From Agelas oroides (Eukaryota > Porifera > Demospongiae > Agelasida > Agelasidae), in NCBI GenBank assembly GCA_949130485.1, contig OX422184.1:8782996-8846995 (forward strand): a stretch of 64,000 nt of DNA, written 5' to 3'. The first letter of the stretch is position 1. Each line of letters begins with the position of its first letter. The translations under genes were made by a program, and so were the position numbers. The notes under the pieces were generated by a model, which worked only from the letters and a program-made list of their open reading frames with translations, was not told the DNA's origin and searched no databases. Positions 2,767 to 64,000 of the stretch are shown piece after piece.

Positions 2767-3222
2767 GTCACTTTTTGGAACATGTTTGGACCAGAAGAAA
2801 TGATGATCGGAGAAGTCTGAAGAAAAGAGAGAGTGCTTGGATCAAGGCTTTAAGAACAATGGAACCCTGTGGACTAAACATCATCCCATAGCCTTTCTTC
2901 ACCTACTGCCATTGCTCCCTTTTCATTTTCCCAACTGTACCCCCTCCAAGAATTCATTTTCTAGAATGTACCCCCCTTAAGCCTCCGCATTTTGTATTGT
3001 AGCTCCTCTAGGCATTTTACATGCTGTACCCCCTAGGCCTTACATAGTTTACAGTAGCGTGCTGTTTCCATGACAAACACACTATCACTAGGTACACGCC
3101 GTTGCTAGTTACCACACACGCTGTTACTAAACAAACCTGTATATAAGTGCTGTTTCATTTCCTTGTAACCACCCTTGAGAAAGCTCACCACCGATGAGGG
3201 AAACGTTGGGCCTCTAAGCAGG
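2767..3222. other. Unassigned spacer
   Basis: No coding region recognised. Several short C-rich blocks resemble one another (TGTACCCCCT near 2936, 2967 and 3024). At 3191-3210 a CCGATGAGGGAAACG string resembles a hammerhead ribozyme core without helix II; see rejected items. Confidence 0.4.
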
Positions 3223-3931
3223 GAATAAAGTTTTGCCAAACCCCTCCTATACTGTCCTCATCATAAACCTATACCGCAGCGCCGCAGAGATGACGTCATT
3301 TTTGAAACTACTCCACTAAACTACTCGCACCCGCACCCTGAGATATGCACTTCGATCCAGGGAGATCTATACCGAGGGACCAATTACATCCCCGGAGATA
3401 CTGTCAGAGCCCCCCCAGACGCAGGACGACAGCATCAACAGCATACAAGAGACACCGAACAGGCAATTCAGGCTGGTACTCTCGGTAACCCCGTGCATGC
3501 CTCGTATAAGTAGTATAGAATCTGTTAACCATAGTTCTTCCCCCTTACTGTTTAGCCCTACACCCACCTCAAGCCCAGTCCATGCCCCTACCCCTGACTC
3601 CCTCCAGAACCAGCCACCTCCCCCTCCACTTAGCCCCACTAACAGTCCAACCTCTTTCAATAACACAACATGAAGAACCCCTACCGGGATCCCCTGAACT
3701 ATTCAGCCCCACCCCCACAAGTAGCACAATCCAAAACAAGTGGCCATCACACCCCCCCCCCCCCCCCCCCCCCCTCTCCCTCAACGATCCCCACGCATTA
3801 GGAAAAGACACAGGCTACATAATTATGAAAGTCTTGCCTCAACAAATGGGAGCTACGATGTGTGTAGCAGTGTTGGCGCTCCCCCACCTGACACCCCAAC
3901 TGCTTGGATAACTGAAATGTCAGAAGTATAA
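3223..3931 (+). pseudogene. Pro/Ser/Thr-rich retroelement ORF fragment, copy 1
   Basis: From the ATG at about 3290 the plus strand reads MTSFLKLLH, then a TAA stop, then TTRTRTLRYALRSREIYTEG and on through a Pro/Ser-rich stretch with a 23-base C run (3752-3774) to a stop near 3929. Frame changes occur on the way. The first 298 bp (3223-3520) are repeated in inverted orientation at 4865-5160, where the same peptide is open, so this is repetitive coding DNA and not a single-copy gene. A long Pro/Ser-rich N-terminal ORF would suit ORF1 of a non-LTR or Penelope-like element, but I do not recognise the family. The stop within the first ten codons shows that the copy is dead. Confidence 0.5.
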
Positions 3932-4098: not shown

Positions 4099-4227
4099 TC
4101 AAGCTTGCGCACTGGTAAGTCCCCACAGGCCAGACGTGCCATCATTTGTCATGTTGAAGCCGTGAAAGTTGCACATGCCTTTCTGAAATGTTTCATTGAC
4201 AAGATTTAAGTGGCAAAGGAAACAGCA
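4099..4227. other. Unassigned sequence upstream of an R1 module
   Basis: No recognised feature. Unlike R1 copies at 29.9 and 35.7 kb, this copy is not preceded by an obvious open coding tag. Confidence 0.3.
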
Positions 4228-4846
4228 GTTGTGTGTCGAGTGGGGGAGCACCAACACCTCTGGCACATCGATGTTCAATTTCACACATACATGAAGTGTG
4301 ATGTTAAAACATGAAGGGAGATGGGGATGGGGCATTTATGGCTTAAATGGATGGTGGCTTAAATGGGTGTGGCATTTATGGCTTAAATGGGTGGGGCATT
4401 TATGGCTCAAATGGATGGGGCGGTTAGTTACTGTTTTTGGGAGATATGCTCAAATAAATACTGGTCTTCAGGGGAGTACCCTTTCCGGTCCTCGCATGAC
4501 TACGGATTTCGGTCCCTTTGAACTCCCGACCCGTGGCCTACTACAGAAAGGGCGGGACCACTCCCCGCCTAAGGTTTGCTTTGAGGAGCCCAGCTTTTGG
4601 TTGGCACATAGTGCTATGGGCATTCACAGTGCTATAAATATTCAAATTACTAAACAAATTGGGGGTGGGGCTCAATGGGTGGAGTTATCATATTAACTTA
4701 TAATAACTAGGGGGATGGGCGAACGGTTAACGTATGGGATTCTGGCTCGCTATCGTGTTGTCTTGGTGGAACGTCTGGGAGGCTTGTCTTCACTGGTAGG
4801 CGCTCCTGCACCAAAGATAATTCGGGTCTGTACTGCGGCTACTATC
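4228..4846 (+). repeat. R1 repeat family, module a (copy 1)
   Basis: This 619-bp stretch matches 29913-30590 and 35741-36410 (plus) and 58966-59390 (minus). It begins with GTGTCGAGTGGGGGAGCACC, has a short GGGGCATTTATGGCTTAAATG minisatellite, then a block with GC-box, CCAAT-like and TATAAATA motifs. It stops abruptly at about 4846, where the inverted copy of the 3.2-kb sequence begins. The other copies continue into a GTGAGT splice-donor-like sequence and a hairpin array, both absent here. Confidence 0.85.
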
Positions 4847-4864
4847 TCAAGACTTCATAGTTAT

Positions 4865-5160
4865 CTATACTACTTATACGAGCCATGCACGGGGTTACCG
4901 AGAGTACCAGCCTGAATTGGCTGTTCGGTGTCTCTTGTATGCTGTTGATGCTGTCATCCTGCGTCTGGGGGGGCTCTGACAGTATCTCAGGGGATGTAAT
5001 CTGTCCCTCGGTATAGATCTCCCTGGACCGGAGTGCGTATCTCAGGGTGCGGGTTCGAGTAGTATAGTGCAGTAGTTTCAAAAATGACGTCATCTCTGTG
5101 GCGCTGCAGTATAGGTTTGTGGTGAGGACAGTATAGGAGGGGGTTGGCAAAACTTTATTC
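4865..5160 (-). pseudogene. Pro/Ser-rich retroelement ORF fragment, inverted copy 2
   Basis: Reverse complement of 3223-3520 with a modest number of substitutions. On the minus strand a 112-codon frame (4842-5180) is open through MTSFLKLLHYTTRTRTLRYA; the tyrosine codon here corresponds to the TAA stop of copy 1. The match begins in both copies at GAATAAAGTTTTGCC, with different sequence upstream, so that point is a recombination or element boundary. A head-to-head pair around an R1 module could come from a 5'-inverted retrotransposition or from independent insertions. Confidence 0.55.
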
Positions 5161-9570: not shown

Positions 9571-10854
9571 GCTTTTGCTCACACTGGCAAAAATCTTGCA
9601 ACACGGTTGATGTACTCTCCAGATGGTTTTGTGATGAGGATGGCGCCGACGCGCAATATATGCAATACTTAAGCAAAACCCGTATAACTTCACCACCAAC
9701 ACGCAAAACGTTTATTTAAGCATCCAGGCTTCCTCTTTGAGTGGTTTTGTGATCAGCAAGACTCATATAGTTGCCCAAAAACCTCGCGGAAGACAGCTAA
9801 ACGCAAAAGTGTGTGATAGCAAAAGTGCCATTTTTCGTATTCTTCTTTCTTTCTTTCTTTCTTGTTACGACAAACAACGATATCTCGCAAACTGTTTAAG
9901 TACTCTCCGTCATTTTAGCACAAAACTGATGCTTATCACAGCGTGGCACTCTGCGTCTTCATAGCTTCAAATTCACCCTGGTCAATAAAAGCCATTCACA
10001 ACACTCTGAGGCTGCTGTCCGTTGCTTAGGACGCCATTTTCTAATTTTGTACGCATGCGCACATGAAGTCTCGTTCCCAGACCAAAGACCACGATCATTG
10101 GTCTGGAAGACTAGTACACAGGCGAAATGGCCAGCGGGCAGTACGCATGACTAGCACGGACCCCGTGGCATTGGGCAAGGCTTATGAACACCACGTAGGT
10201 AAGGCGCTACCTACTTGTAGCTACACTAAAAATAGCCTACTCACCGCTTTAGTGAAGCTAGGATGGTCAGTTATCAGTATGATAGTTTTCTGTGCTGCAG
10301 CTGGTCAGTCGTCATGACAACTGAATCATGAAATTGGTTTCACAAAGTTTGGTAGGGAGAGCGGTTGGCCCTTCATCAGGTTATAGCTGGCTATATTACA
10401 CATTATTATTACATGCCTGGAACTACTACTAAACTGTCAACGCCGTTTCAAGTTCTGGTGTTGTGGTTACACTTGAAATGTTCTTCTTAGGCTTAGGTCT
10501 AACTGTAACTGAGATTAACATCAAAAAAGTATAGAACATCTTTTTCACACTGCAGTTAGACAGCATGCTTGAGAGCTGAATCTGTACCCATCCATGCAGT
10601 TAGCATGAGTACCTGAGTTTACACACTGATTACTATGACTAGTCTTCAGCCCATTCAAGCTCAGTGTCTAGGTTGTATCAGAAAGGGTGCCACTGTCACT
10701 ACAAGTAGTATGATGGCAGTAAAGGGGATGGGGCTTTGCCAATATGTTGACCTTTGCTTTCATGCATTATCCCTACCCTGTTTGCATACTTTTTGGCATG
10801 CCATCCCTACATCTTTTTACATTTTTGATGTTTTTTAAGTCTTGTAATTATATA
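9571..10854. other. Unassigned region with a TTTC microsatellite
   Basis: No gene recognised. A short (TTTC)n run lies at about 9841-9863. At 10798-10845 a 48-bp segment matches one arm of the perfect hairpin at 55592-55697, with several differences, so a MITE end or solo arm is present here. The plus-strand frame 10063-10317 has no known motif. Confidence 0.4.
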
Positions 10855-11390
10855 GTAACGGTACGCCTAGGGGTGTAGTCGGTTCCATAAGGCTGAGCTA
10901 GGGCTAGGGCTGGGTTGGGGCTACTCTGTGTTATCTGCGAGGCTCACTCACAGTGTGAAGCTCATTCACATTAAAAAATTACGAGTGTGAAGCTCATTCA
11001 CACTTGAGTTACTACTGTGAGGTTCACTCACAGTTACATTACGAGTGTGAAGCTCATTCACACTTGAGTTACTACTGTTACGTTATGGGTGTGAAGCTCA
11101 TTCGCATTTTAAATTACAGGTGTGAGTGTGTTTAATAGGGTAAGGGCTTTATACTTTATACATGTGTATCTATGTGGAGATGGATAAAGACGGGGTCTTT
11201 TTTGACTACAGCTGTCCTTCCTATCGCAATTAAATACACTGTGGTAGCTAAGTGGAGATCCCCTGCGGACGGGGTTGCGGGCCTGGGTGGGTTGACTGTA
11301 CAAGCATATTGCCTGAGCGGATACTCTCACTATCCACCACCTCAGCCTCCGGCTCAATTATCTCTTCACCAAGGCGGTTACTCTAGGCCT
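10855..11390 (+). repeat. R1 repeat, modules b (short hairpin array) and c (copy 2)
   Basis: Starts with GTAACGGTACGCCTAGG as in the 30.7-kb copy. It continues through a short array of GTGTGAAGCTCATTCACAC-type hairpins (about 10938-11125) and then module c (TTTATACTTTATACATGTGT to TCTCTTCACCAAGG). It stops near 11385, where the full copies continue with GGGTATCCTATGG. Module a is missing. Confidence 0.85.
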
Positions 11391-29749: not shown

Positions 29750-29912
29750 TGTGATGACGTGACGTAAGAAGCGCAATGGTATGACGATCACGAGTAGGTC
29801 TGCCATTTATCTTGCTGACTTGCCAGTACTGCCACTCACTGACTGGATTACCTTCATTCGGGACGGTGAACGTAGGCACTCTGTCGAATGCCATTGCTGT
29901 TGCCATCAAGCA
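29750..29912 (+). other. Coding-like tag preceding R1 module a
   Basis: In the plus frame ending at 29988 the text reads LTGLPSFGTVNVGTLSNAIA, then VAIKQ, and runs in frame into the R1 start LYVEWGSTNTAGTS. It looks like a genuine exon end. The corresponding upstream sequence of the R1 copy at 35.7 kb is different. Confidence 0.4.
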
Positions 29913-31643
29913 GTTGTATGTCGAGTGGGGGAGCACCAACACCGCTGGCACATCGGTGTTCAAAATTTCACACATACATAAAGTGTGAAGTTAAAACATA
30001 AAGGGAGATGGGGATGGGGCATTTATGGCTTAGATGGATGGGGCATTTTATGGCTTAAATGGGTGGGTGGGGCATTTATGGCTTAAATGGGTGGGGCATT
30101 TTATGGCTTAAATGGGTGTGGTATTTATGACTTAAATGGGTGGGGCATTTATGGCTCAAATGGATGGGGCGGTTAGTTACTGTTTTTGGGAGATATGCTC
30201 AAAAAAAAAACTGGTCTTCAGGGGAGTACCCTTTCCGGTCCTCGCATGACCACGGGTTTCGGTCCCTTTGAACTCCCGACCCGTGGCCTACTACAGAAAG
30301 GGCGGGACCACTCCCCGCCTAAGGTTTGCTTTGAGGAGCCCAGCTTTTGGTTGGCACATAGTGCTATGGGCATTCACAGTGCTATAAATATTCAAATTAC
30401 CAAACAAATTGGGGGTGGGGTTCAATGGGTGGAGTTATCATATCAACTTATAATAACTAGGGGGATGGGCGAACGGTTAACGTACGGGATTCTGGCTCGC
30501 TATCGTGTCGTCTTGGTGGAACATCTGGGAGGCTTGTTCTTCGTTGGTAGGCGCTCCTGTACCGAAGATAATTCGGGTCTGTACTGCGGCGACCATCTCA
30601 TGGTGAGTATTATTAGTTGTTTGTGTGTGATACTCGGTCGACGGGCTTTAAATGGGAGCGTGCTTCTCTTAGTAACGGCGTACCTATCCTAGTAACGGCA
30701 TTGTTACGCTAGTTATGGCGTGTGCTTTACTATAGTAACGGTACGCCTAGGGCTGTAGTCGGTTCCATAAGGCTGAGCTAGGGGTTGGGGCTGCTCTGTG
30801 TTATCTGCGAGGCTCACTCACAGTGTGAAGCTCATTCACATTAAAAATTACGAGTGTGAGGCTCACTCACACTTGAGTTACTACTGTGAGGCTCACTCAC
30901 AGTTACGCTACGGGTGTGAAGCTCATTCACACTTGAGTTACCACTGTGAGGCTCATTCACCATTATGTTACGAGTGTGAAGCTCATTCACATTAAAAATT
31001 ACGAGTGTGAGGCTCACTCACACTTGAGTTACTACTGTGAGGCTCACTCACAGTTACGTTATGAGTGTGAAGCTCATTCACACTTGAGTTACCACTGTGA
31101 GGCTCATTCACCGTTATGTTACGAGTGTGAAGCTCATTCACATTTTTTAAATTATGAGTGTGAAGCTCATTCACACTTCAGTTACATGTACTACTGTGAG
31201 GCTCATTCACCGTTACGAGTGTGAAGCTCATTCACACTTGAGTTACTACTGTGAGGTTCACTCACAGTTACGTTACGAGTCTGAAGCTCATTCACACTTG
31301 AGTTACTACAGTTACGTTATGGGTGTGAAGCTCATTCGCATTTTAAATTACGAGTGTGAGTGTGTTAGGATGAGGGCTTTATACTTTATACACATGTATC
31401 TATGTGGAGATGGATAAAGACGGGGTCTTTTTGACTACAGCTGTCCTTCCTCTCGCAATTAAATACACTGGTAGCTAGGTGGATATCCCCTGCGGACGGG
31501 GTTGCGGGCCTGGGTGGGTTGACTGTACAAGCACATTGCCTGAGCGGATACTCTCACTATCCACCACCTCAGCCTCCGGCTCAATTATCTCTTCACCAAG
31601 GGGGTATCCTATGGTTAACTTTGGAAAATGGGAATGGGGCTGG
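29913..31643 (+). repeat. R1 repeat, modules a-b-c (copy 3, most complete)
   Basis: Module a (29913-30800): the LYVEWGSTNTAGTS tag, then four to six copies of a GTGGGGCATTTATGGCTTAA unit (30010-30165), then a GC-box/CCAAT/TATAAATA promoter-like block (30290-30395) and CATCTCATG|GTGAGTATT, a perfect-looking 5' splice site near 30602. Module b (30805-31352): hairpin array. Module c (31360-31643): TTTATACTTTATACACATGT to GGAAAATGGGAATGGGGC. No intact protein is evident. The same modules recur at 4.2, 10.9, 35.3 and 59-60.6 kb in other orders. Confidence 0.85.
30805..31352 (+). repeat. R1 hairpin array: about 18 short palindromes, 30-bp period
   Basis: About 18 units alternate mainly between GTGTGAAGCTCATTCACAC and CTGTGAGGCTCACTCACAG, with a third form GTGTGAGGCTCACTCACAC. 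Each is a 7-bp stem around the fixed loop GCTCA, separated by about 11 nt (TTGAGTTACTA or TTACGTTATGA). Stem positions 1 and 7 change together on both sides (G-C/C-G and A-T/G-C). Related arrays lie at 10938-11125, 36655-36930, 37115-37516 and, inverted, 60535-60640. Confidence 0.9.
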
Positions 31644-31741
31644 GGGTTGTAAAGATGTATTCGACTAAGCTGTGGAAGGCTTGCTTGTGACCTAGTTACA
31701 ACAGTAAGCTCAGATACTAAAACCTCTCTGTGTGCATGCTG

Positions 31742-31875
31742 TAGGTTTCTCTACGGGCTGGGTCAGGCTGTGTTAGGATAAGGGCTTTATACTTTATACA
31801 CATGTATCTATGTGGAGATAGATAAAGACGGGGTCTTTTTGACTACAGCTGTCCTTTCGCAATTAAATACACTGT
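31742..31875 (+). repeat. R1 module c fragment
   Basis: GTTAGGATAAGGGCTTTATA through AAAGACGGGGTCTTTTT to GCAATTAAATACACTG matches the start of module c at 31360 and 60430-60530, then stops. Confidence 0.85.
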
Positions 31876-32424
31876 CGTTACCAGAAATTAATACTGTACA
31901 AGCGGACATGACACGGACTTCCTTGGTGGACGGAATAACTCCGTTTTGTTTTACGTGTGCCAATAATATACGGTTAGTTTGCGGAAAATGCAAAGAGACA
32001 GGCATATGAGAGCAAAATTTCTACCCCAGTGAAGCGATGCACCCGGCACCCTCCAGGGTTTTACCGCGCTCTGCATAACCACGGCTGTGCGGACGTCCTG
32101 GGTGTTGGGCTTGGCCATCGCAACCGCGAACACGGCAAGCTCCGAGTGAGCGCCGACTCGAGAAGGTTGCTCTAATGAGGCGGAGCGTCTTGTGGCCAAG
32201 AGAAGGAAGGTAACTAACCACTGTAGTCTTTATGTGTGCCTTTGGTGGAGATTATAAAGCCATAAGCACGTTGACGTGCAAGCACTAGCTATACAATTAC
32301 ATGTATAATTGTGAGGGCAGCCAGTCTGTACAGTTCTGTGTTGTGATACTGCGCAGGAACTGATGAGTACTTAGTCCTCTGGAGTGGCTACCCCAAGGGG
32401 TAGTCACTTATATGTGGAGTGTTG
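31876..32424. other. CpG-rich unassigned segment
   Basis: The plus frame 31812-32009 ends with a CxxC-x8-CxxC pattern (FCFTCANNIRLVCGKCKETG), a possible small zinc-binding peptide. Bases 32040-32200 are CpG-rich, and the plus text contains GCADVLGVGLGHRNREHGK. Nothing here is recognised. It could be a short exon plus a CpG island. Confidence 0.3.
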
Positions 32425-32647
32425 AACTAGGATCATGATTTTTGATTGGTGGAAATTGTGCTTGATCGGTTAATCGTTCCTTTCCGAAGCTCTTGATGGC
32501 TTGATTTACGGTGGTTCAAATGACAAAATGGCCATGCCTCCCTGGTGTCATTGATCTGTTGATTTTTTGCACTTCGGAGGTCACTTTGATCCCTTGATTG
32601 GCTCTAAAAAGGGATGTTGATCACTTGATTCCATTTTGATCCTAGTT
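32425..32647. mobile_element. MITE-like element with 11-bp TIRs
   Basis: AACTAGGATCA at 32425-32435 is the reverse complement of 32637-32647. The interior has repeated TGATC(A/C)(C/T)TTGAT phrases and no gene. Confidence 0.5.
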
Positions 32648-32671
32648 GCAAAAATTATGCTTCAACAGAGG

Positions 32672-32933
32672 GCCTGGTATCTTTTCTCACGTGAGTGACG
32701 TCAGGATAGAAAGGATGGTAGAAAGGGTTTAATTGTGTGTGGGCGCACTGGGCCCAGAACAGCAAAAAGAGCCAAGGTACTAGGTAACTTACCACACGTT
32801 TCTAGCTAGCAGGAGGCGACTGTCTTACACACCAAGCGTTGAGTGTGTAGTTGGTTGAACAATACGTGAAGCACAGCTGTTAGTTCTGCCATTTTCCAAT
32901 TACGTCATGCTCATGTGAGAAAAGATACCAGGC
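32672..32933. mobile_element. MITE-like element with 19-bp perfect TIRs
   Basis: GCCTGGTATCTTTTCTCAC at 32672-32690 is the exact reverse complement of 32915-32933, and similarity extends a few bases on both sides (GTGAGTGACGT against CATGACGTAA). The roughly 262-bp interior is non-coding. No target duplication was fixed. Confidence 0.65.
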
Positions 32934-33518
32934 TCTCCCCGCTTTTCTGTACTGAAAGTGATGGAAAGCTGGGCGGGACCTGGGAACAAGGCTAGATCTT
33001 ATCATTTGGGCAGCTGCTTTGGTGTGACAATGAATTGTATTATATCTTCTACAGTGCTTTTGAAGCTCCCTGCCCAGCCTATCGCCTGGTAGCAGATAGT
33101 GTCAGCAATTTCGTTACTGAAGTACATCGAAGTCTGTTATACTGAATTGAAGGAAATCACCGAGATGATTGTTGGCAAGATGCTAACATCCCTATAACAA
33201 TTTATCAATGTTCAATTGGCAAACATAATTATGAATCTTTTTTTGTGATAAAAGTATATACATACACACACTTGTCTACCCTGAATTCCAGTATACATGT
33301 ATATTGCCATAGCAACATGTGAATGAGTTCGAATATGGACAACGCTCTAGTATGTATACACACCTGTATGAGTCTTTTCAGTACTGTTTTGGCCTTGTTA
33401 GGCCTCATTAGTGGAGTACAACACAACAGAACCACAAAATTAAAAATCAGTGAATTGCTGTTGCATAACCCTGGACAATACTGTTTTCTTGCAACCCTAC
33501 AGGCATGTTTTGTGCATG

Positions 33519-33600
33519 TGTGCTCTGTGTGTGTGTGTGTGGGTGTGCGCTTGCATGTGTGTACGTATGTGTGTACGTGACCAAAGTGTGTGGGTGTGTT
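33519..33600 (+). repeat. GT-rich microsatellite
   Basis: Interrupted (GT)n/(TGTG) tract with TACG interruptions. The His/Thr-rich minus frames over it are by-products of the repeat. Confidence 0.85.
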
Positions 33601-33619
33601 TGTGCATGCATGAGGGAGA

Positions 33620-35340
33620 GAGATGACATGATTGCGTAAAGCACACACTTTCAAGTGTGTGCAACCTCATTCCAAGGTGCAAACGAGGCTAGGTATATGT
33701 ACACAATTCTGCTTAATGAATACCCAGACATCTATAGACACAAAAATCCCAACTGTCCCTCCGTTCACTTTGCAATCCCTGAATAATGGACATCCCACTA
33801 CTCCATATAATGGATACTATTCACACTCCTAGCTGTACGCAAACATTACTTAACGGCCCTAATTTAGCAATACTCATTGACCTTTCTGCAAGATTTCCAC
33901 CATTGCTGCTGAAGTTAACAACTTGACATTAGATTAGCACTCTTAGTCATAGTACTAGCCCGGTTAGCCTTCCACGCCAGCATACAGTGAGGGAAAGTTC
34001 TGAAAACATGGCGACACTGTTCAACAGCCTGATTATGAATTACCATGCCTACCGGAAATGTACCATAAGCCCCTGAGTTAGGAAAACATTGCCATAGTGT
34101 CCACCTTAGAGGGGTTCCACTGTACACATAATATATTCAATGCCATCGCTTGCCTTAAGGTGGCGATCTCCTCCCCCGTCTAGATCTGCCATCTCCTCCA
34201 ACAAAGGCTGTGGTGAAATAGTGATGCCACAGTGCACTTGGATGTGAGCATACGTCCCCAATAGGCAGTGGTAACCTGGCTTCTCAACCTGCCAGCATGA
34301 CAGGCTAGATTGCCAGCCGCATGGCAACAATCTGGTCAATATAGTCCCTTGGCTTCGATGCCACCAAAACAGGAGCTGGTTAGGCACACTCAAGCTGAAG
34401 ATAACTTCATAACTTTGGAAATCTTTTCTAGTGGTCCTGAGAGCCAGCTCCCTTCCCTCCCCTTTACCACCACTTCTACGTTCTCTCTAGGATGTTTATG
34501 CATGGGGTCGACTTTGGCTCCTTTTCTGCCTTGCAGGCTCACTAGAAGCTGTAAAAGTCTCAGCCTTTTGCATGCAAAGCTGTACCATTGTCTGAAGAGC
34601 AAGCTCCCCCGCCACAAGGTATTTTCCATGACTGTAAACTACAACATACAAGTTTAACATCAACTGTCTGACTGCCTTGGGCTGGCTAGCTAGCTAAAAA
34701 TTTCCCTTCCGGCCGTGGCACAGCCACTCTACTCTCAAGGCTACATTATTGTCTGTGTAATAGCACCATGCCATCATCACCTTACCTGATTCGTGGACAA
34801 TCTAGCCCGCCGGCAAGCCAGGAGAAGCACAGGACTGCACTTTTCACTGCCGTGTTCACATATTTCTATGACGTAATTTGTCTGTCATGACCAAAATTTG
34901 GGCCAACTTTGACGGCTCGGCGAAAAATCGGTGGGATAGTCACACGGCCAAGGGCGTAGATTTTGTGGAGTAGACCATCTAAATAGACGATATAGATGAT
35001 ACGAAGTGCAAAAAAAAGGTTTTGTCCATGTCAAAAATTGATGCAAAAAACTGTTTTCAGTAAATTTTTACATCGGCTATAGTAAGTAGGCTAAGCTAAG
35101 TGCCGTGTGAAGATCGGTTTGTCGAAAAATGAGAGTTATACTGTAGGGAACGCTGGTTGTAGTTTCAGGCAGGTGAATGAATGTACTTCCATCGTGGATG
35201 ATACGAAGTGTGGTAGCTCCCTCCCCTGAGTGTGAAAGGAACAAAACTTATGTAGCTCCATAGAGGCCAATACAAATTAAATGTCAGTATGCGGATAGGT
35301 ATACGAACTAGTTTACGAATAATTAACGTCCGTGTCCAAC
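33620..35340. other. Region without recognised genes
   Basis: Contains a CTCTAAGGTGGACAC/TACAGTGGAACC type string on the minus strand (34098-34125), similar to ends of common invertebrate MITEs. Two minus frames (34390-34629 with HKHPRENVEVVVKGREG, and 34106-34393) look mildly protein-like but are not recognised. Confidence 0.3.
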
Positions 35341-35345
35341 GATTT

Positions 35346-37516
35346 CTGGTAACGGGTAGCTAGGTGGAGATCCCCTGCGGACGGGGTTGCGGGCCTGGGT
35401 GGGTTGACTGTACAAGCACATTGCCTGAGCGGATACTCTCACTATCCACCACCTCAGCCTCCGGCTCAATTATCTCTTCACCAAGGGGGTATCCTATGGT
35501 TAACTTTGGAAAATGGGAATGGGGCTGGGACAAGGAATTATTATTGGAGAGATATTCCTTCATGCACAGTGAGAAGTCTAGCCTGTTGCCTATTGTCATG
35601 CTGTTTAGGTCTAAGGCATGCCTGAGGTATTATGGTTGTTAGAACACGTGCGTCTTCGGGTGGATCCATTGAAGGATGCTGCGGGTTCCCCATTTGGCAA
35701 GGCTGACAGACTTTATCTGTACCTGCATGTTCAGAAGTTGTATGTCGAGTGGGGGAGCACCAACACCGCTGGCACATCGATGTTCAAAATTTCACACATA
35801 CATAAAGTGTGAAGTTAAAACAAAGGGAGATGGGGATGGGGCATTTATGGCTTAGATGGATGGGGCATTTTATGGCTTAAATGGGTGGGTGGGGCATTTA
35901 TGGCTTAAATGGGTGGGGCATTTTATGGCTTAAATGGGTGTGGTATTTATGACTTAAATGGGTGGGGCATTTATGGCTCAAATGGATGGGGCGGTTAGTT
36001 ACTGTTTTTGGGAGATATGCTCAAAAAAAAAACTGGTCTTCAGGGGAGTACCCTTTCCGGTCCTCGCATGACCACGGGTTTCGGTCCCTTTGAACTCCCG
36101 ACCCGTGGCCTACTACAGAAAGGGCGGGACCACTCCCCGCCTAAGGTTTGCTTTGAGGAGCCCAGCTTTTGGTTGGCACATAGTGCTATGGGCATTCACA
36201 GTGCTATAAATATTCAAATTACCAAACAAATTGGGGGTGGGGCTCAATGGGTGGAGTTATCATATTAACTTATAATAACTAGGGGGATGGGCAAACGGTT
36301 AACGTACGGGATTCTGGCTCGCTATCATGTCGTCTTGGTGGAACGTCTGGGAGGCTTGTTCTTCGCTGGTAGGCGCTCCTGTACCGAAGATAATTCGGGT
36401 CTGTACTGTGGCGACCATCTCACGGTGAGTATTATTAGTTGTTTGTGTGTGATACTCGGTCGACGGGCTTTAAATGGGAGCGTGCTTCTCTTAGTAACGG
36501 CGTACCTATCCTAGTAACGGCATTGTTACGCTAGTTATGGCGTGTGCTTTACTATAGTAACGGTACGCCTAGGGCTGTAGTCGGTTCCATAAGGCTGAGC
36601 TAGGGGTTGAGCTCATCCTTCAATGGATCCACCCTATCTGCTCTGTGTTATCTGCGAGGCTCACTCACAGTGTGAAGCTCATTCACATTAAAAATTACGA
36701 GTGTGAGGCTCACTCACACTTGAGTTACTACTGTGAGGCTCACTCACAGTTATGCTACGGGTGTGAAGCTCATTCACACTTGAGTTACCACTGTGAGGCT
36801 CATTCACCGTTATGTTACGAGTGTGAAGCTCATTCACATTAAAAATTACGAGTGTGAGGCTCACTCACACTTGAGTTACTACTGTGAGGCTCACTCAGTT
36901 ACGTTATGAGTGTGAAGCTCATTCACACTTTTGTGTGATACTCGGTCGACGGGCTTTAAATGGGAGCGTGCTTCTCTTAGTAACGGCGTACCTATCCTAG
37001 TAACGGCATTGTTATGCTAGTTATGGCGTGTGCTTTACTATAGTAACGGTACGCCTAGGGCTGTAGTCGGTTCCATAAGGCTGAGCTAGGGGTTGGGGCT
37101 GCTCTGTGTTATCTGCGAGGCTTACTCACAGTGTGAAGCTCATTCACATTAAAAATTACGAGTGTGAGGCTCACTCACACTTGAGTTACTACTGTGAGGC
37201 TCACTCACAGTTACGCTACGGGTGTGAAGCTCATTCACACTTGAGTTACCACTGTGAGGCTCATTCACCGTTATGTTACGAGTGTGAAGCTCATTCACAT
37301 TAAAAATTACGAGTGTGAGGCTCACTCACACTTGAGTTACTACTGTGAGGCTCACTCACAGTTACATTATGAGTGTGAAGTTCATTCACACTTATGTTAC
37401 GAGTGTGGAGCTCATTCACATTAAAAATTACGAGTGTGAGGCTCACTCACACTTGAGTTACTACTGTGAGGCTCACTCACAGTTACGTTATGAGTGTGAA
37501 GCTCATTCACACTCAT
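35346..37516 (+). repeat. R1 repeat, modules c-a-b-b (copy 4, permuted)
   Basis: Module c comes first (35357-35620, GATCCCCTGCGGACGGGGTT to GGAATGGGGCTGG). A 120-bp link follows whose plus frame reads LRVDPLKDAAGSPFGKADR and on into LYVEWGSTNTAGTS. Next come module a (35740-36640), a hairpin array (36655-36930), a second copy of the end of module a (36931-37110) and a second array (37115-37516). The roughly 460-bp internal duplication is nearly identical. The right end abuts the first recognisable exon of the HECT gene. Confidence 0.85.
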
Positions 37517-58965: not shown

Positions 58966-60649
58966 GCTAGCACTGTGAATGCCCATAGCACTATGTGCCA
59001 ACCAAAAGCTGGGCTCCTCAAAGCAAACCTTAGGCGGGGAGTGGTCCCGCCCTTTCTGTAGGCCACGGGTCGGGAGTTCAAAGGGACCAAAACCCGTGGT
59101 CATGCGAGGACCGGAAAGGGTACTCCCCTGAAGACCAGTATTTTTTTTTGAGCATATCTCCCAAAAAACAGTAACTAACCACCCCATCCATTGGAGCCAT
59201 AAATGCCCCACCCATTTCAGCCATAAATGCCCCACCCATTTAAGCCATAAAATGCCACACCCATTTAAGCCATAAATGCCCCATCACCATCTCCCTTTGT
59301 GTTTTAACTTCACACTTTATGTATGTGTGAAATTTTGAACATCGATGTGCCAGCGGTGTTGGTGCTCCCCCACTCGACACACAACTTCTGAACATGCAGG
59401 TACAGATAAAGTCTGTCAGCCTTGCCAAATGGGGAACCCGCAGCATCCTTCAATGTATCCACCCGAAGACTCACGTGTTCTAACAACCATAATACCTCAG
59501 GCATGCCTTAGACCTAAACAGCATGACAATAAGCACCAGGCTAGACTTCTCACTGTGCATGAAGGAATATGTCTCCAACAATAATTCCTTGCCCCAGCCC
59601 CATTCCCATTTCCAAAGTTAACCATAGGATACCCCCTTGGTGAAGAGATAATTGAGCCGGAGGCTGAGGTGGTGGATAGTGAGAGTATTCGCTCAGGCAA
59701 AGTGCTTGTACAGTCAACCCACCCAGGCCCGCAACCCTGTCCGCAGGGGATCTCCACCTAGCTACCACAGTGTATTTAATTGCAAGAGGAAGGACAGCTG
59801 TAGTCAAAAAGACCCCGTCTTTATCCATCTCCACATAGATACATGTATATAAAGTATAAAGCCCTTATCCTACATGTAACACAGCCCCTTATCCAGCCCG
59901 TAGAGAAACCTACAGCATGCACACAGAGAGGTTTTAGTATCTGAGCTTACTGTTGTAAATAGGTCACAAGCAAGCCTTCCACAGCTCAGTCGAATACATC
60001 TTTACAATCCCCAGCCCCATTCCCATTTTCCAAAGTTAACCATAGGATACCCCCTTGGTGAAGAGATAATTGAGCCGGAGGCTGAGGTGGTGGATAGTGA
60101 GAGTATCCGCTCAGGCAAAGTGCTTGTACAGTCACATTCCCATTTTCCAAAGTTAACCATAGGATACCCCCTTGGTGAAGAGATAATTGAGCCGGAGGCT
60201 GAGGTGGTGGATAGTGAGAGTATCCGCTCAGGCAAAGTGCTTGTACAGTCACATTCCCATTTTCCAAAGTTAACCATAGGATACCCCCTTGGTGAAGAGA
60301 TAATTGAGCCGGAGGCTGAGGTGGTGTATAGTGAGAGTATCTGCTCAGGCAATGTGCTTGTACAGTCAACCCACCCAGGCCCGCAACCCCATCCGCAGGG
60401 GATCTCCACTTAGCTACCACAGTGTATTTAACTGCGAGAGGAAGGACAGCTGTTGTCAAAAAGACCCCGTCTTTATCCATCTCCACATAGATACACATGT
60501 ATAAAGTATAAAGCCCTTATCCTAACACACTCACACTCGTAATTTAAAATGCGAATGAGCTTCACAATCGTAACGGTGAATGAGGCTCACAGTAGTACAT
60601 GTAACTGAAGTGTGAATGAGCTTCACACTCATAATTTAAAATTTTATCG
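58966..60649 (-). repeat. R1 repeat, modules b-c-c-a on the minus strand (copy 5, permuted)
   Basis: Read on the minus strand: the end of a hairpin array (60640-60535), module c (60530-60000), a second module c with its link region (59880-59340), then module a (59400-58966) ending at the TATAAATATT block. Inside the first module c a 117-bp unit is tandemly triplicated. The outer array end is cut by the LTR at 60650, so the gypsy element inserted into this R1 copy. Confidence 0.85.
60018..60368 (-). repeat. 117-bp unit in three tandem copies within R1
   Basis: CATTCCCATTTTCCAAAGTT begins at 60018, 60135 and 60252 (exactly 117 bp apart). Copies are almost identical. 117 is 39 codons, so frames stay open across the array on both strands. 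Confidence 0.9.
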
Positions 60650-60808
60650 TGTTGTGGCTTGCTGTCTATGCGCCTGACGTTCATCACAGGGACAAGAGTT
60701 CAACAACGATCAGTGGGTACAATCAGAGAGGACCGGGAGTACACGAGGGTCACGTGATGACAGAATGACAGGTGATTATATACACAACTGATTAACATAC
60801 TCATTACA
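60650..60808 (-). repeat. 3' LTR of the gypsy element
   Basis: On the minus strand it begins TGTAATGAGTATGTTAATCA directly after the polypurine tract and ends GCAAGCCACAACA (TG...CA). The second LTR is outside the window, so the borders rest on the purine tract and on the break in R1. Confidence 0.7.
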
Positions 60809-60833
60809 TCTCCCCTTTTGTAAAACATGCGCA

Positions 60834-63227
60834 CTAAGAGGATATATAAAGATGAACACACACACACACACACCAAGGTACCAATGATAAATGCATTAGT
60901 AGAGTAACTTGCTGTTCCTGGTGTGAGTCTCTTACGATGGCACATATGTTGTAATCCAGTCGGGTGTCGTTCTGTCTTGTTGATCGACGTAGTTGTGGAG
61001 TTTCGTCCTGTGTGGGGGCTGATGGTGGCTGTGGTTCCAGCAAGTTTGGTGGTGCCGGGTCGGGTGCAGGTGGTGATGGTGGCAAATCAGGATCATCTAG
61101 CTGACTCGGCTCTGAGGGTTCTTCCTGGTGTGTTTGTTCTCCACCCTTGATTAGGTGTCGTCTGTTCCGCCGATACACGGTACATCCCGCTTGAACTGTA
61201 TAACTGCGTGGGCCCTCTGTGCCAGTACATATCCCTGACGTCCACCGCTTTTTTCCAGGTAGTCGCAGTCTCACAGTCTCTCCCACTGCTATGGGAGGAA
61301 GATCACGAGCTTGACGATCGTAGTAGTAGGGTTGTTTGGCTAGTTTGCCCTTCAATGCCTGGGCATCTGTTGTGGTATCGTATGCTGGCTTCAACATCGA
61401 TTCTGTCATGGGGAGTAGTGTTCGACATCTCCTGCTGAGGAATCGTTGTGCCGGACTTGACCCCACCCCCTCCGTCGGTGTGTTGTTCCAGTCTAGTAGA
61501 GCCTGGAACTCCGACTGTCTTGTCTCCTGGCATTTAGTGAGTAGTCGTTTGACTGTTTTTACTGCATTTTCCGCCCTACCATTAGATTGTGGGTAGTGAG
61601 GAGACGATGTAACATGCTGGAAACCCCATCTCTTGGCAAAAGACACAAACTCAGCTGAGGCAAATTGTGGCCCATTGTCGGTCACTAGCACGTCGGGGAC
61701 ACCATATCTGGCAAAAAGGGCCTTCAGAGCCCTGCTAACTGCTGTAGTGGTTGTTGTGTGTAAACGCTCCACCTCAATGAAGCCACTGAAATAGTCGCAG
61801 ACGACCAAGAGCGTCCGTCCCCTAAAGTCGCATAGATCAGCACACACTTTTGCCCATGGTCGGGCCATGATTTCATGCTGCATGAGGGTTTCCTTATGTG
61901 GTGCACTTTGGTAAGCTAGGCACACATCACATCTGGATATGTAACCTTTGAGATCGGATGACATGCGTGGCCAAGACATTGACTCACGAGCACGCCTGAC
62001 ACATCCTTCGATCCCAATGTGCGTGGCATGGCACTTGGCCATCATCTCCGCTCTCAGTGCTGCTGGAATTACCACGACTTGGCCCTTGAACACTAGCCCA
62101 CCTTGTGTGGTCATCTGGTCTCGGAACTCGAAGTACGGACGAACAGCATCTGGCACTTCGGCTTTGTGTGTTGGCCAGCCTTCTTGAACGATGCGCCGTA
62201 GTTCCTGCATTGCCACATCTTGTGATGCCGCCAGCTTGAGGCGCTCTAGGTCTTCTGGGGCCACAGCCAATGACTCAGTGTGGTCGATCGATTCCAGCTC
62301 CTTTACTTCCGCTACAGTGACCTCGTCAGGTAAGTATGCACGGCTTAGAGTGTCGGCCAGATACATGAGCTTGCCCTTCTTGTAGGTGACATCGAGTGAG
62401 TATTTTTGCAGTTGTAGGAGCATACATTGGAGCTGTTTTGGGGCGTAGTTGAGCGGCTTCTTCATGATTGCTTCTAATGGCTGGTGGTCTGACTCCACTT
62501 TCACCCTGTCCCTGCCATAAATGTAAATATCAAATCTGTTACATGCAAACACAATAGCAAGGAGTTCTTTTTCTATCTGGGCATACCGGGTTTCTGCCTC
62601 CGTCATGGCCCTGGACGCATAAGCCACAGGTTGTCCGTTCTGCATCAAAGCGGCCCCTAGTCCCGATCCTGATGCATCGCATTGTATTGTGGCTTCTTCC
62701 TTGAGGTTGTAATACCTCAGGACAGGGGTGTTCGTGATGGCTTTCTGTAGCTTCTGAAACGCATCCTCTTGTGGTTTGTCCCAGACCCATTCGACGGTCT
62801 TGTGAGTGAGCTCTCTCAGTGGTTTTGTTACGTCTGCGAGGTGGGGAAGAAACTTTGCCAAGTACTGGGACATTCCCAGGAGTCGTTGGACCCCAGCGAC
62901 ATCTGTGGGCGGTGGCATTCGTGTGATTGCATCCACTTTGGTGGGGTCTGCCCGGAGGCCTTTGTCCGTTGCTACATGCCCAATGAATGGCACCTCCTGC
63001 CTTCTCAGCTGCACTTTGTTGCTGTTCAGTCTGATACCTCTGGCCGCACATCTCTGAAGGAACGCCTCCAGGTTATGGTCGTAGTCTCTTACAGCATCTT
63101 CCAGCGTGTCCCCAAAACCAACCACAACAAAGTCATCCACCACGACCTCCACTCCCTGTAAACCTTCGATGAGTTGGTGGATCCTCCGTTGGAACACTTC
63201 AGGCACTCTTCCACCTGTACCGCCCAA
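60834..63227 (-). CDS. pol: Gypsy pol: RT C-terminus, RNase H and integrase
   Basis: A 797-codon minus frame. RT palm end FQRRIHQLIEGLQGVEVVVD with catalytic VVVDDFVVVG, connection domain FIGHVATDKGLRADPTKVDA, RNase H (ATIQCDASGSGLGAAL, QIEKELLAIVFACNRF, VESDHQPLEAI), then integrase with the H2C2 finger (HATHIGIEGC, CDVCLAYQ), CADLCDFRG (Asp 1), LVTDNGPQFASAEF (Asp 2), SNGRAENAVKTVKRL (Glu) and the C-terminal GETVRLRLPGKKRW with RRNRRHLIKGG. All catalytic acids are present. A Pro-rich tail follows and ends near the LTR in a CA-repeat-encoded stretch. The 5' part of pol is in another frame (63199 upwards), with residues between YRWK and PEVFQRR missing. The element is thus probably inactive but young-looking. 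Confidence 0.9.
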   Translation of the reverse strand: MGGTGGRVPEVFQRRIHQLIEGLQGVEVVVDDFVVVGFGDTLEDAVRDYDHNLEAFLQRCAARGIRLNSNKVQLRRQEVPFIGHVATDKGLRADPTKVDAITRMPPPTDVAGVQRLLGMSQYLAKFLPHLADVTKPLRELTHKTVEWVWDKPQEDAFQKLQKAITNTPVLRYYNLKEEATIQCDASGSGLGAALMQNGQPVAYASRAMTEAETRYAQIEKELLAIVFACNRFDIYIYGRDRVKVESDHQPLEAIMKKPLNYAPKQLQCMLLQLQKYSLDVTYKKGKLMYLADTLSRAYLPDEVTVAEVKELESIDHTESLAVAPEDLERLKLAASQDVAMQELRRIVQEGWPTHKAEVPDAVRPYFEFRDQMTTQGGLVFKGQVVVIPAALRAEMMAKCHATHIGIEGCVRRARESMSWPRMSSDLKGYISRCDVCLAYQSAPHKETLMQHEIMARPWAKVCADLCDFRGRTLLVVCDYFSGFIEVERLHTTTTTAVSRALKALFARYGVPDVLVTDNGPQFASAEFVSFAKRWGFQHVTSSPHYPQSNGRAENAVKTVKRLLTKCQETRQSEFQALLDWNNTPTEGVGSSPAQRFLSRRCRTLLPMTESMLKPAYDTTTDAQALKGKLAKQPYYYDRQARDLPPIAVGETVRLRLPGKKRWTSGICTGTEGPRSYTVQAGCTVYRRNRRHLIKGGEQTHQEEPSEPSQLDDPDLPPSPPAPDPAPPNLLEPQPPSAPTQDETPQLRRSTRQNDTRLDYNICAIVRDSHQEQQVTLLMHLSLVPWCVCVCVHLYISS

Positions 63228-63995
63228 AAGGGGTGTTGAAAGTGGTCAGGAAGGAGGAGTCCTCTTCCAACTCTATGTGCCAGAAACCCTTGCGGACGTC
63301 GAGGACCGTGAAGACTTTGGCACCGTGGAGGCGTGTCGCGATGTCCTCTATGGTGGGGAGTGGGTAGTGTTCCCGGCGGATGGCCTTGTTTAAGTCACGT
63401 GGGTCGAGGCATATACGCAGCTTGCCATCCTTCGGCACGACCACCATGGAGCTGACCCATGGTGTGGGCTGCTGGACAGGTGCTATAATATCCTGCTGCA
63501 CAAGGTCGTCTAGTGTACCCTTTAGAGCATCACGCAAGGGGACTGGAACTGGGCGTGGAGGGTGCTGTACTGGTTGAATGCTGTTATCTAGTACGATCCT
63601 GTACTTTCCCTCCAGTCGACCCACTCCTGCTCCAAAGACTTCAGGGTGCTCTCTTTGCAACTGTTCGATGAATACAGGTCCAGCTGGTTCGAGAGTATGG
63701 ACAGGGGCGTTACCAGTCTTTGGCTTGTGGATGGCATTGTTGTCGAGGTATTTGATGACTTCCATGCCCAGGCATGCCTTGCGCCCGAGCAGTGGACGGA
63801 TCTTTTGAGAGTCTACGAGCCGACAGTCCAGACGGTACTCTGATGCTTCCCTCCAAACCACCAATATTACACGTCCAACAACCGGCAGTGTGGTTCCACC
63901 ATAGGCTGTGACTCGAGTATTGGTGTGAGGGTCTTGTCGCCCGTGGCCTTCTTGTATGTGTCTACTGGTAGGACACCTGGAATCTGATGTAGCTG
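63199..63995 (-). pseudogene. pol: Gypsy pol 5' part: protease tail and RT fingers/palm
   Basis: Minus frame with VVGRVILVVWREASEYRLDC, LLGRKACLGMEVIKYLDNNA, then RT: RDALKGTLDDLVQQDIIAPV, TPWVSSMVVVPKDGKLRICL, DPRDLNKAIRREHYPLPTIE, FTVLDVRKGFWHIELEEDSS (motif A Asp) and FNTPFGRYRWK. It then runs into a stop at 63199, where the expected RMPFG-type segment is missing and the downstream pol continues in another frame. Upstream of about 63930 the protease-like text (TYKKATGDKTLTP) lies in a further frame. The deletion/frameshift at 63200-63230 breaks the polyprotein. Confidence 0.85.
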
Positions 63996-64000
63996 CCTGA

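Follow-up and report, generated by a model that had tools for sequence, protein, structure and literature searches.

The closest described relatives of the repeat treated here are Penelope-like elements (PLEs) of the Penelope/Poseidon type, with a GIY-YIG domain. In what is by its own account the first in vitro study of a full-length PLE protein (PMC11167929), reverse transcription has an internal start on the RNA, the template must include the initial 172 nt of the open reading frame (ORF), and the organisation is tandem. PMC3846280 describes for Penelope one insertion junction without a target-site duplication (TSD) that arose via microhomology, together with partial tandems, inverted pseudo-long terminal repeats (pLTRs) and other insertions with TSDs, and reports the action of Penelope in trans on host genes. 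In PMC7229834, PLEs are proposed as the helpers of metazoan retrozymes, whose repeats measure 150-450 bp and carry type I hammerheads. Our analysis concerns a tandem array of short dyads (a 7-nt arm, a 5-nt centre and a second 7-nt arm) in a 64,000-nt stretch of the sponge Agelas oroides (assembly GCA_949130485.1, contig OX422184.1, positions 8,782,996 to 8,846,995, forward strand), which we call the window, and the interspersed repeat, Y, in which the array lies.

The array does not stand free in the genome but forms a minisatellite within Y. Y itself is probably a non-autonomous Penelope-like retroelement, with an RNA sense that corresponds to the minus strand of the window. It resembles the PLEs named above in its tandem and 5'-truncated copies, in a fixed end that lies inside the tandem unit, in one insertion without target duplication and in the sequence that it has in common with a PLE at the end and in the start region. 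It differs from them by having no recognisable ORF and by carrying a dyad array that the intact PLE of this genome (locus L039) lacks; moreover, the hammerhead, a motif of PLE pLTRs, was found by Rfam in neither Y nor L039. Because the Y copies read contain no ORF for a reverse transcriptase (RT) with GIY-YIG, we file Y as a non-autonomous relative and not as a PLE proper. Metazoan retrozymes are likewise non-autonomous tandem repeats, but Y, at about 2.4 kb and without a hammerhead match, does not qualify as one. Short and long interspersed nuclear elements form pairs that share a 3' end, and Y has a short end in common with its presumed helper, but the shared part of Y spans both sides of the proposed start site. 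A search of the literature on PLEs without an ORF found nothing of this kind among the papers listed. The main interest of Y lies in a putative start module common to this ORF-less repeat and an intact PLE. The sequence-only reading that had pointed out the array knew of no described element with this architecture; it had not seen the setting inside a probable Penelope-like retroelement.

The dyad array and the repeat that contains it

The source genome is eukaryotic and comprises 259 Mb in 141 contigs, with a GC content of 45% in the first loci fetched and the window. Allowing up to three mismatches, the dyad was found genome-wide 3071+2666 times, against 161+138 for a reversed-pattern control, and exact matches numbered 540+469 (1009) against 0 for the reversed pattern, which places the array far beyond chance. 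For comparison we used 20 stretches on contig C1, each 10 kb long and containing dyad matches chosen among those listed; these array loci all come from C1 and the window lies on C2, so that the sample is not random across the genome. The 21 sources together hold 473 dyads, five of them on the opposite strand (three of these make up the array at 60.6 kb). Since 13 of the 23 matches of locus L028 lie outside its array and resemble another repeat, they were dropped, leaving 460 dyads; some counts for young arrays still include these stray matches, and the identity measures were recomputed without them.

The array had been described from the letters as about 18 units of 30 bp, each with a 7-bp stem around a fixed GCTCA loop. 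The 18 dyads are real, but only 10 of the 17 start-to-start intervals are exactly 30 bp (the rest are 18, 25, 31, 31, 33, 36 and 44 bp). The centre is indeed GCTCA in 17 dyads (GTTCA in the other one), but full Watson-Crick stems (7/7 pairs) occur in only nine of the 18, the remaining nine having one to three non-Watson-Crick pairs. Tandem Repeats Finder called a period of 30 at 30822-31306 and a period of 151 at 30822-31296. The similar arrays that the same reading had placed at 10.9, 36.7, 37.2 and 60.6 kb all exist (Table 1). A Ty3/gypsy-type element with RT, RNase H and integrase occupies window positions 60652-64000, inserted in a Y array; as the array is broken by it near 60.65 kb, the idea that the array belongs to this element was ruled out.

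Y sequence surrounds the dyads in all 20 of the C1 stretches. The unit in L018 is 2413 bp long, with its array at unit positions u895-1510, and the dyad arrays in Y generally measure about 0.2-0.65 kb. Head-to-tail units with a period of 2.3-2.4 kb are present in L018, L026, L022, L019 and L013, alongside single and truncated copies, and neighbouring units are up to 100% identical, which suggests recent activity. Three loci (L012, L024 and L027) represent diverged Y lineages, with 74-76% identity in the flank before the array. The left end of Y is sharp among differing flanks and the right end halts at many different points. Only two stop-to-stop frames of at least 200 codons overlap Y: one of 205 codons in the L012 array, possibly a product of the 30-bp period, and a gypsy frame whose final bases reach into Y where it is inserted in L018. 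The Y copy of 29909-37512, which holds the main array, is split by what is probably a nested transposon with terminal inverted repeats.

Relation of Y to autonomous Penelope-like elements

Locus L039 contains an ORF of 922 aa that matches RVT_1 (E 4.9e-12 at 377-565) and GIY-YIG (E 0.0047 at 826-912); three copies lie 4306 bp apart, each with the 922-aa frame, and from these domain matches L039 is an autonomous PLE with an RT plus a GIY-YIG-like domain. Its RT-endonuclease part has at least 77 matches in the genome (best 63 of 645 candidates scored), and a PDB search with the RT part returned no match. Copies of the PLE repeat Z, which also occurs in the window, are spaced 4.3 kb apart on C1. 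Alignment of Y with L039 gives 111 identities at 136 positions (82%, E 2e-28), with 47 bp on the near side of the Y joint and 85 bp beyond it. By analogy with the PLE studied in vitro, we infer that this shared stretch lies where the RT-start and protein-binding signals would be.

A further likeness is seen in a predicted structured RNA domain near the fixed end of Y, which is related to sequence downstream of two PLE ORFs (Table 1). Its main helix is CCACGGGU/ACCCGUGG in Y and UCACAGGU/ACCUGUGA in L045, the differences being on both sides. The domain contains strings like those of a hammerhead core (CUGANGA, GAAAC, GUC) in an unusual order; they could not be arranged into a hammerhead by hand, and no Rfam hammerhead was found for L045 or the Y unit, so that this candidate was rejected. 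A stand-alone structured RNA was also set aside, as neither the window nor the Y unit has any Rfam match. In Z (window 3191; L039) there is a GATGAG-GAAAC-like string that resembles a hammerhead core stripped of helix II.

The ends of Y were examined for the traces of insertion. None of the 17 right ends checked has a clear TSD, two of them being uninformative (the flanks of L028 are repetitive, and window position 4849 abuts Z). The Y copy of L017/L018 interrupts a pol gene of gypsy type, for which an empty-site copy, L038, is available. The right flank of Y matches L038 as far as L038 base 521, and the left flank matches it from base 696 onwards, which means that this insertion cost the target 174 bp and added a short run of A. 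L021 terminates in a short stretch that repeats the fixed end of Y in inverted orientation. At 4223-5160 of the window, Y sequence (u690-1) is followed by same-sense Z sequence that lacks the Z end; we read this as a probable Y/Z chimera, such as could arise if reverse transcription switched templates between the RNAs of Y and a PLE.

If Y does use a PLE enzyme, as these sequence relationships suggest, the PLE protein would bind Y RNA (minus strand) in the shared region and reverse transcription would begin internally at the Y joint. Transcripts of several units would then yield tandem copies, and early stops would yield the variable end. In source copies the array probably expands and contracts by duplicating one to five units, a process that accounts for the small number of unit types and for the seeming covariation, and inserted copies probably lose any constraint on the dyad.

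Tandem units and a single fixed end would also be expected if Y were a DNA-based tandem satellite or a Helitron-like rolling-circle element and were not copied from RNA. We consider this very improbable. The other end of Y is variable, its insertion points have no constant bases, the one target that could be reconstructed suffered the 174-bp deletion with A-run filler, the Y/Z chimera lacks Z's own end, and the end sequence of Y is common to an RT-bearing PLE. Helitrons are recognised by a 5' TC, a 3' CTRR and insertion between A and T, and inspection by eye did not find these at the Y ends and junctions; nor did the Y copies read contain a Rep-helicase ORF or any long ORF apart from the array frame, the gypsy frame and frames of 135-205 codons.

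Several observations weigh against Y as a dependent of PLEs. The GIY-YIG score of L039 is below the Pfam cut-off, none of the Y copies was seen to encode an RT, and the lack of an Rfam hammerhead in Y and L039 noted above counts here as well. Seven further PLE 3' flanks (2.8-3.0 kb each) contain neither the dyad (up to five mismatches) nor the Y end. The frames of 135-205 codons overlap Y, and of four that were tested three have Pfam matches, all below cut-off; we take them to be chance frames. Finally, the 136-bp match may go back to an ancient chimera and not reflect a working signal. As a side observation, a PLE ORF from a different family is followed downstream, at L040:2076-3001, by an unrelated 30-bp tandem array of 30.9 copies with 97% matches.

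Conservation and covariation of the dyad

Within-array pairwise identity was compared in four lineages (402, 21, 22 and 5 dyads, in this order). It was.933/.943/.843/1.000 for the inner stem,.963/.981/.909/.840 for the loop and.529/.663/.511/.509 for the spacer. Of the dyad spacings below 70 bp, only 6 of 422 are 51-61 bp, the size of a skipped unit (longer gaps were uncounted); with a recognisable dyad at nearly every 30-bp step, hit selection alone should not give this contrast between dyad and spacer. On the other side of the balance, detection demands likeness to the dyad, and this somewhat favours dyads over spacers.

Inserted copies were compared with one another using 22 distinct arrays of the 23 between anchors, from 33 arrays with at least five dyads; this comparison leaves out L012, L024 and L027, the third and fourth arrays of the window, and an additional array from each of L013, L017 and L026. 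The deviation from the column majority was.0216 for stems,.0101 for loops,.0379 for spacers and.0154 for flanks, where paralogous units mixed in the array alignments inflate the stem and spacer rates and may raise the array values of inserted copies in general. Set against the flank, the stem value indicates that stems are unprotected in inserted copies. The proposal that the stem is maintained and not just copied is thus upheld in part: dyads outlast spacers in four lineages, but the stems of inserted copies differ at least as much as their flanks.

Most simply, the dyad sequence, centre included, is preserved in source copies. Such conservation would be expected of a sequence-specific site more than of a hairpin that needs only pairing, and a sequence-specific role of the dyad in source copies is likely. 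More narrowly, the dyad may be a near-symmetric, sequence-specific DNA site in a control region of Y, our preferred candidate for its role, which we regard as quite possible, though we stop short of calling it probable. Palindromes bound by dimeric proteins include T-box half sites (GTGTGA) and bacterial CRP sites (TGTGA-N6-TCACA). The dyad shares the TGTGA/TCACA half sites, but its centre is 7 and is also conserved. A T-box reading of the dyad was set aside.

A dyad without function would require that hairpin-prone DNA slips and expands as a neutral minisatellite, with the likeness among units coming from recent copying or from arm-to-arm correction at replication. The few founder types, their shared order, the 151-bp higher-order repeat, the 44-bp expansion in L010 and the presence of other minisatellites in Y all agree with this, as does the stem divergence of inserted copies, which is at least as high as in the flank. 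We nevertheless find it doubtful: in the three lineages that have more than five dyads, divergence among units is 34-49% for the spacer but 6-16% for the inner stem and 2-9% for the loop, and arm correction would leave the unpaired centre unpreserved.

The covariation that had been taken as compensatory change at stem positions was examined at each pair. At position 7, exact dyads genome-wide have A-T in 657 cases, G-C in 312 and mixed pairs in 40 (n=1009); in the sampled arrays the pairs are A-T in 208 dyads, G-C in 204, G.T in 44 and A.C in 4 (n=460). Young arrays have a common order of unit types (1-a-B-C-A-x ...) and common odd spacings (18, 31, 32/36/25, 44), so that the strong association at position 7 goes back to few events. 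They vary through block gains and losses, with L010 and L017 changed most; the L010 array has undergone a separate local expansion in 44-bp steps (A-44-a-44 ...), a turnover by another unit length. Alignment of the 22 distinct copies gave 2166 counted pair cells, and in 12 of them both arms had changed. Six of these keep Watson-Crick pairing, all at position 7, which is what swaps between existing unit types would give; of the other six, five have lost any standard pair and one has become T.G, at position 1. The three old lineages together have 49 dyads; G-C occupies position 7 in 48 of these, and a Watson-Crick pair stands at position 1 in 5/22, 11/22 and 1/5 (17/49). The claim of independent compensatory change therefore finds no support, given the shared unit order and the 6 paired changes in 2166, confined to one position. 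We infer a founder effect of one or two old paired changes, with no sign of repeated compensation. Two outcomes had been named in advance as speaking against structural selection, namely copying from founder sequences and stems that decay as fast as spacers; this is mostly what we found, but within arrays the dyad outlasts the spacer.

An RNA hairpin array selected for pairing, perhaps in a plus-strand RNA antisense to the PLE sense, is in our judgement unlikely. Every perfect 19-mer folds as a hairpin in both senses, and the main array folds at -205.2 kcal/mol on the plus strand (z -8.9) and -164.2 kcal/mol on the minus strand (z -3.0). In 13 arrays (of the 33; up to 320 nt each, 20 shuffles) the plus strand had the lower energy in 13/13 and the more negative z in 11/13, but the folded arrays have common founders and are not independent. 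G.T exceeds A.C in the stems of the young arrays (166 vs 40), L024 (7 vs 2) and L027 (2 vs 0), an excess that we read as a few founder differences common to the copies and that is reversed in L012 (2 vs 5). One-sided changes from Watson-Crick pairs are nearly unbiased (12 to plus-sense wobble, 8 to minus-sense wobble and 10 other), no dyad of the 460 has an alternative Watson-Crick pair at positions 2-6, and position 1 is non-Watson-Crick in 32 of 49 old units.

Taking both lines together, Y may be a PLE parasite that keeps only the RT-start module, with the conserved 19-bp dyads as a putative multimeric binding platform (DNA or antisense-RNA hairpins) for active source copies; as a complete account we offer this only tentatively and think it rather unlikely to hold in every part.

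Features of the window and implications for Penelope-like elements

The features of the window that bear on Y are collected in Table 1. At its start, positions 1-2766 contain RT-like (YIAHYLDDF), RNase H-like and tyrosine-recombinase-like frames with Pfam scores below cut-off, and this region, with 98% repeats in four other places, looks like a DIRS-type retroelement. Elsewhere in the assembly, a contig of 22.4 kb carries cox1 in two pieces with an in-frame TGA and, by eye, a frame for a LAGLIDADG-type intron protein between them. The split cox1 and the genome size led us to reject a bacterial reading; taken with the GC content and the sizes of sequenced sponge genomes, the cox1 structure suggests a demosponge. 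A third COX1 match (G000:C107:16176-16808) has no in-frame TGA and perhaps comes from another organism in the assembly.

Table 1. Positions of Y, of its dyad arrays and of related sequences in the window
Feature	Positions	Strand	Remarks
Dyad array under study	30805..31341	none	18 dyads; 7-nt arm/5-nt centre/7-nt arm; mostly 30 bp spacing; 151-bp higher-order repeat
Y copy holding the array, first part	29909..31874	-	29909 is the fixed end (3' in the proposed RNA sense)
Insert in Y copy	31875..35354 (approximate)	none	inverted ends CGTTACCAGAAAT ... ATTTCTGGTAACG
Y copy holding the array, second part	35355..37512	-	end of unit 1; joint 35732/35733; truncated unit 2 with internal duplication
Second Y minisatellite	30015..30170	none	24-bp unit
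Predicted structured RNA domain	30194..30330 (approximate)	-	105 bp; 77-78% to sequence downstream of two PLE ORFs (L044:1055-1159, L045:817-921)
Y tandem joint matching L039 fixed end and start region	35649..35779 (approximate, transferred from unit coordinates)	-	136 positions, 82%
10-dyad array	36652..36928	none	in unit 2 of the Y copy holding the main array
14-dyad array	37113..37512	none	duplicated block u711-1292 of Y
Short dyad array	10935..11107	none	inside Y fragment 10852-11378
Y copy, opposite orientation	58968..60650	+	array 60531-60634, interrupted by Ty3/gypsy-type element
Y 3' part (u1-690)	4223..4849	-	then Z sequence at 4864-5160, same sense, without Z's own 3' end
PLE repeat Z	2802..3904	+	about 45 bp of Y's end common to Z

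One lesson of the array is that founder unit types in a tandem repeat can mimic strong covariation, here with 40 mixed against 969 matched pairs (n=1009). Little is known about how PLEs select their RNA. Here an ORF-less repeat and an intact PLE have in common a short stretch on both sides of the proposed start site, and this indicates a sequence that may be sufficient for mobilisation in trans; if Y is indeed a PLE parasite, the 136 bp would be the smallest natural signal for a PLE moving RNA in trans.
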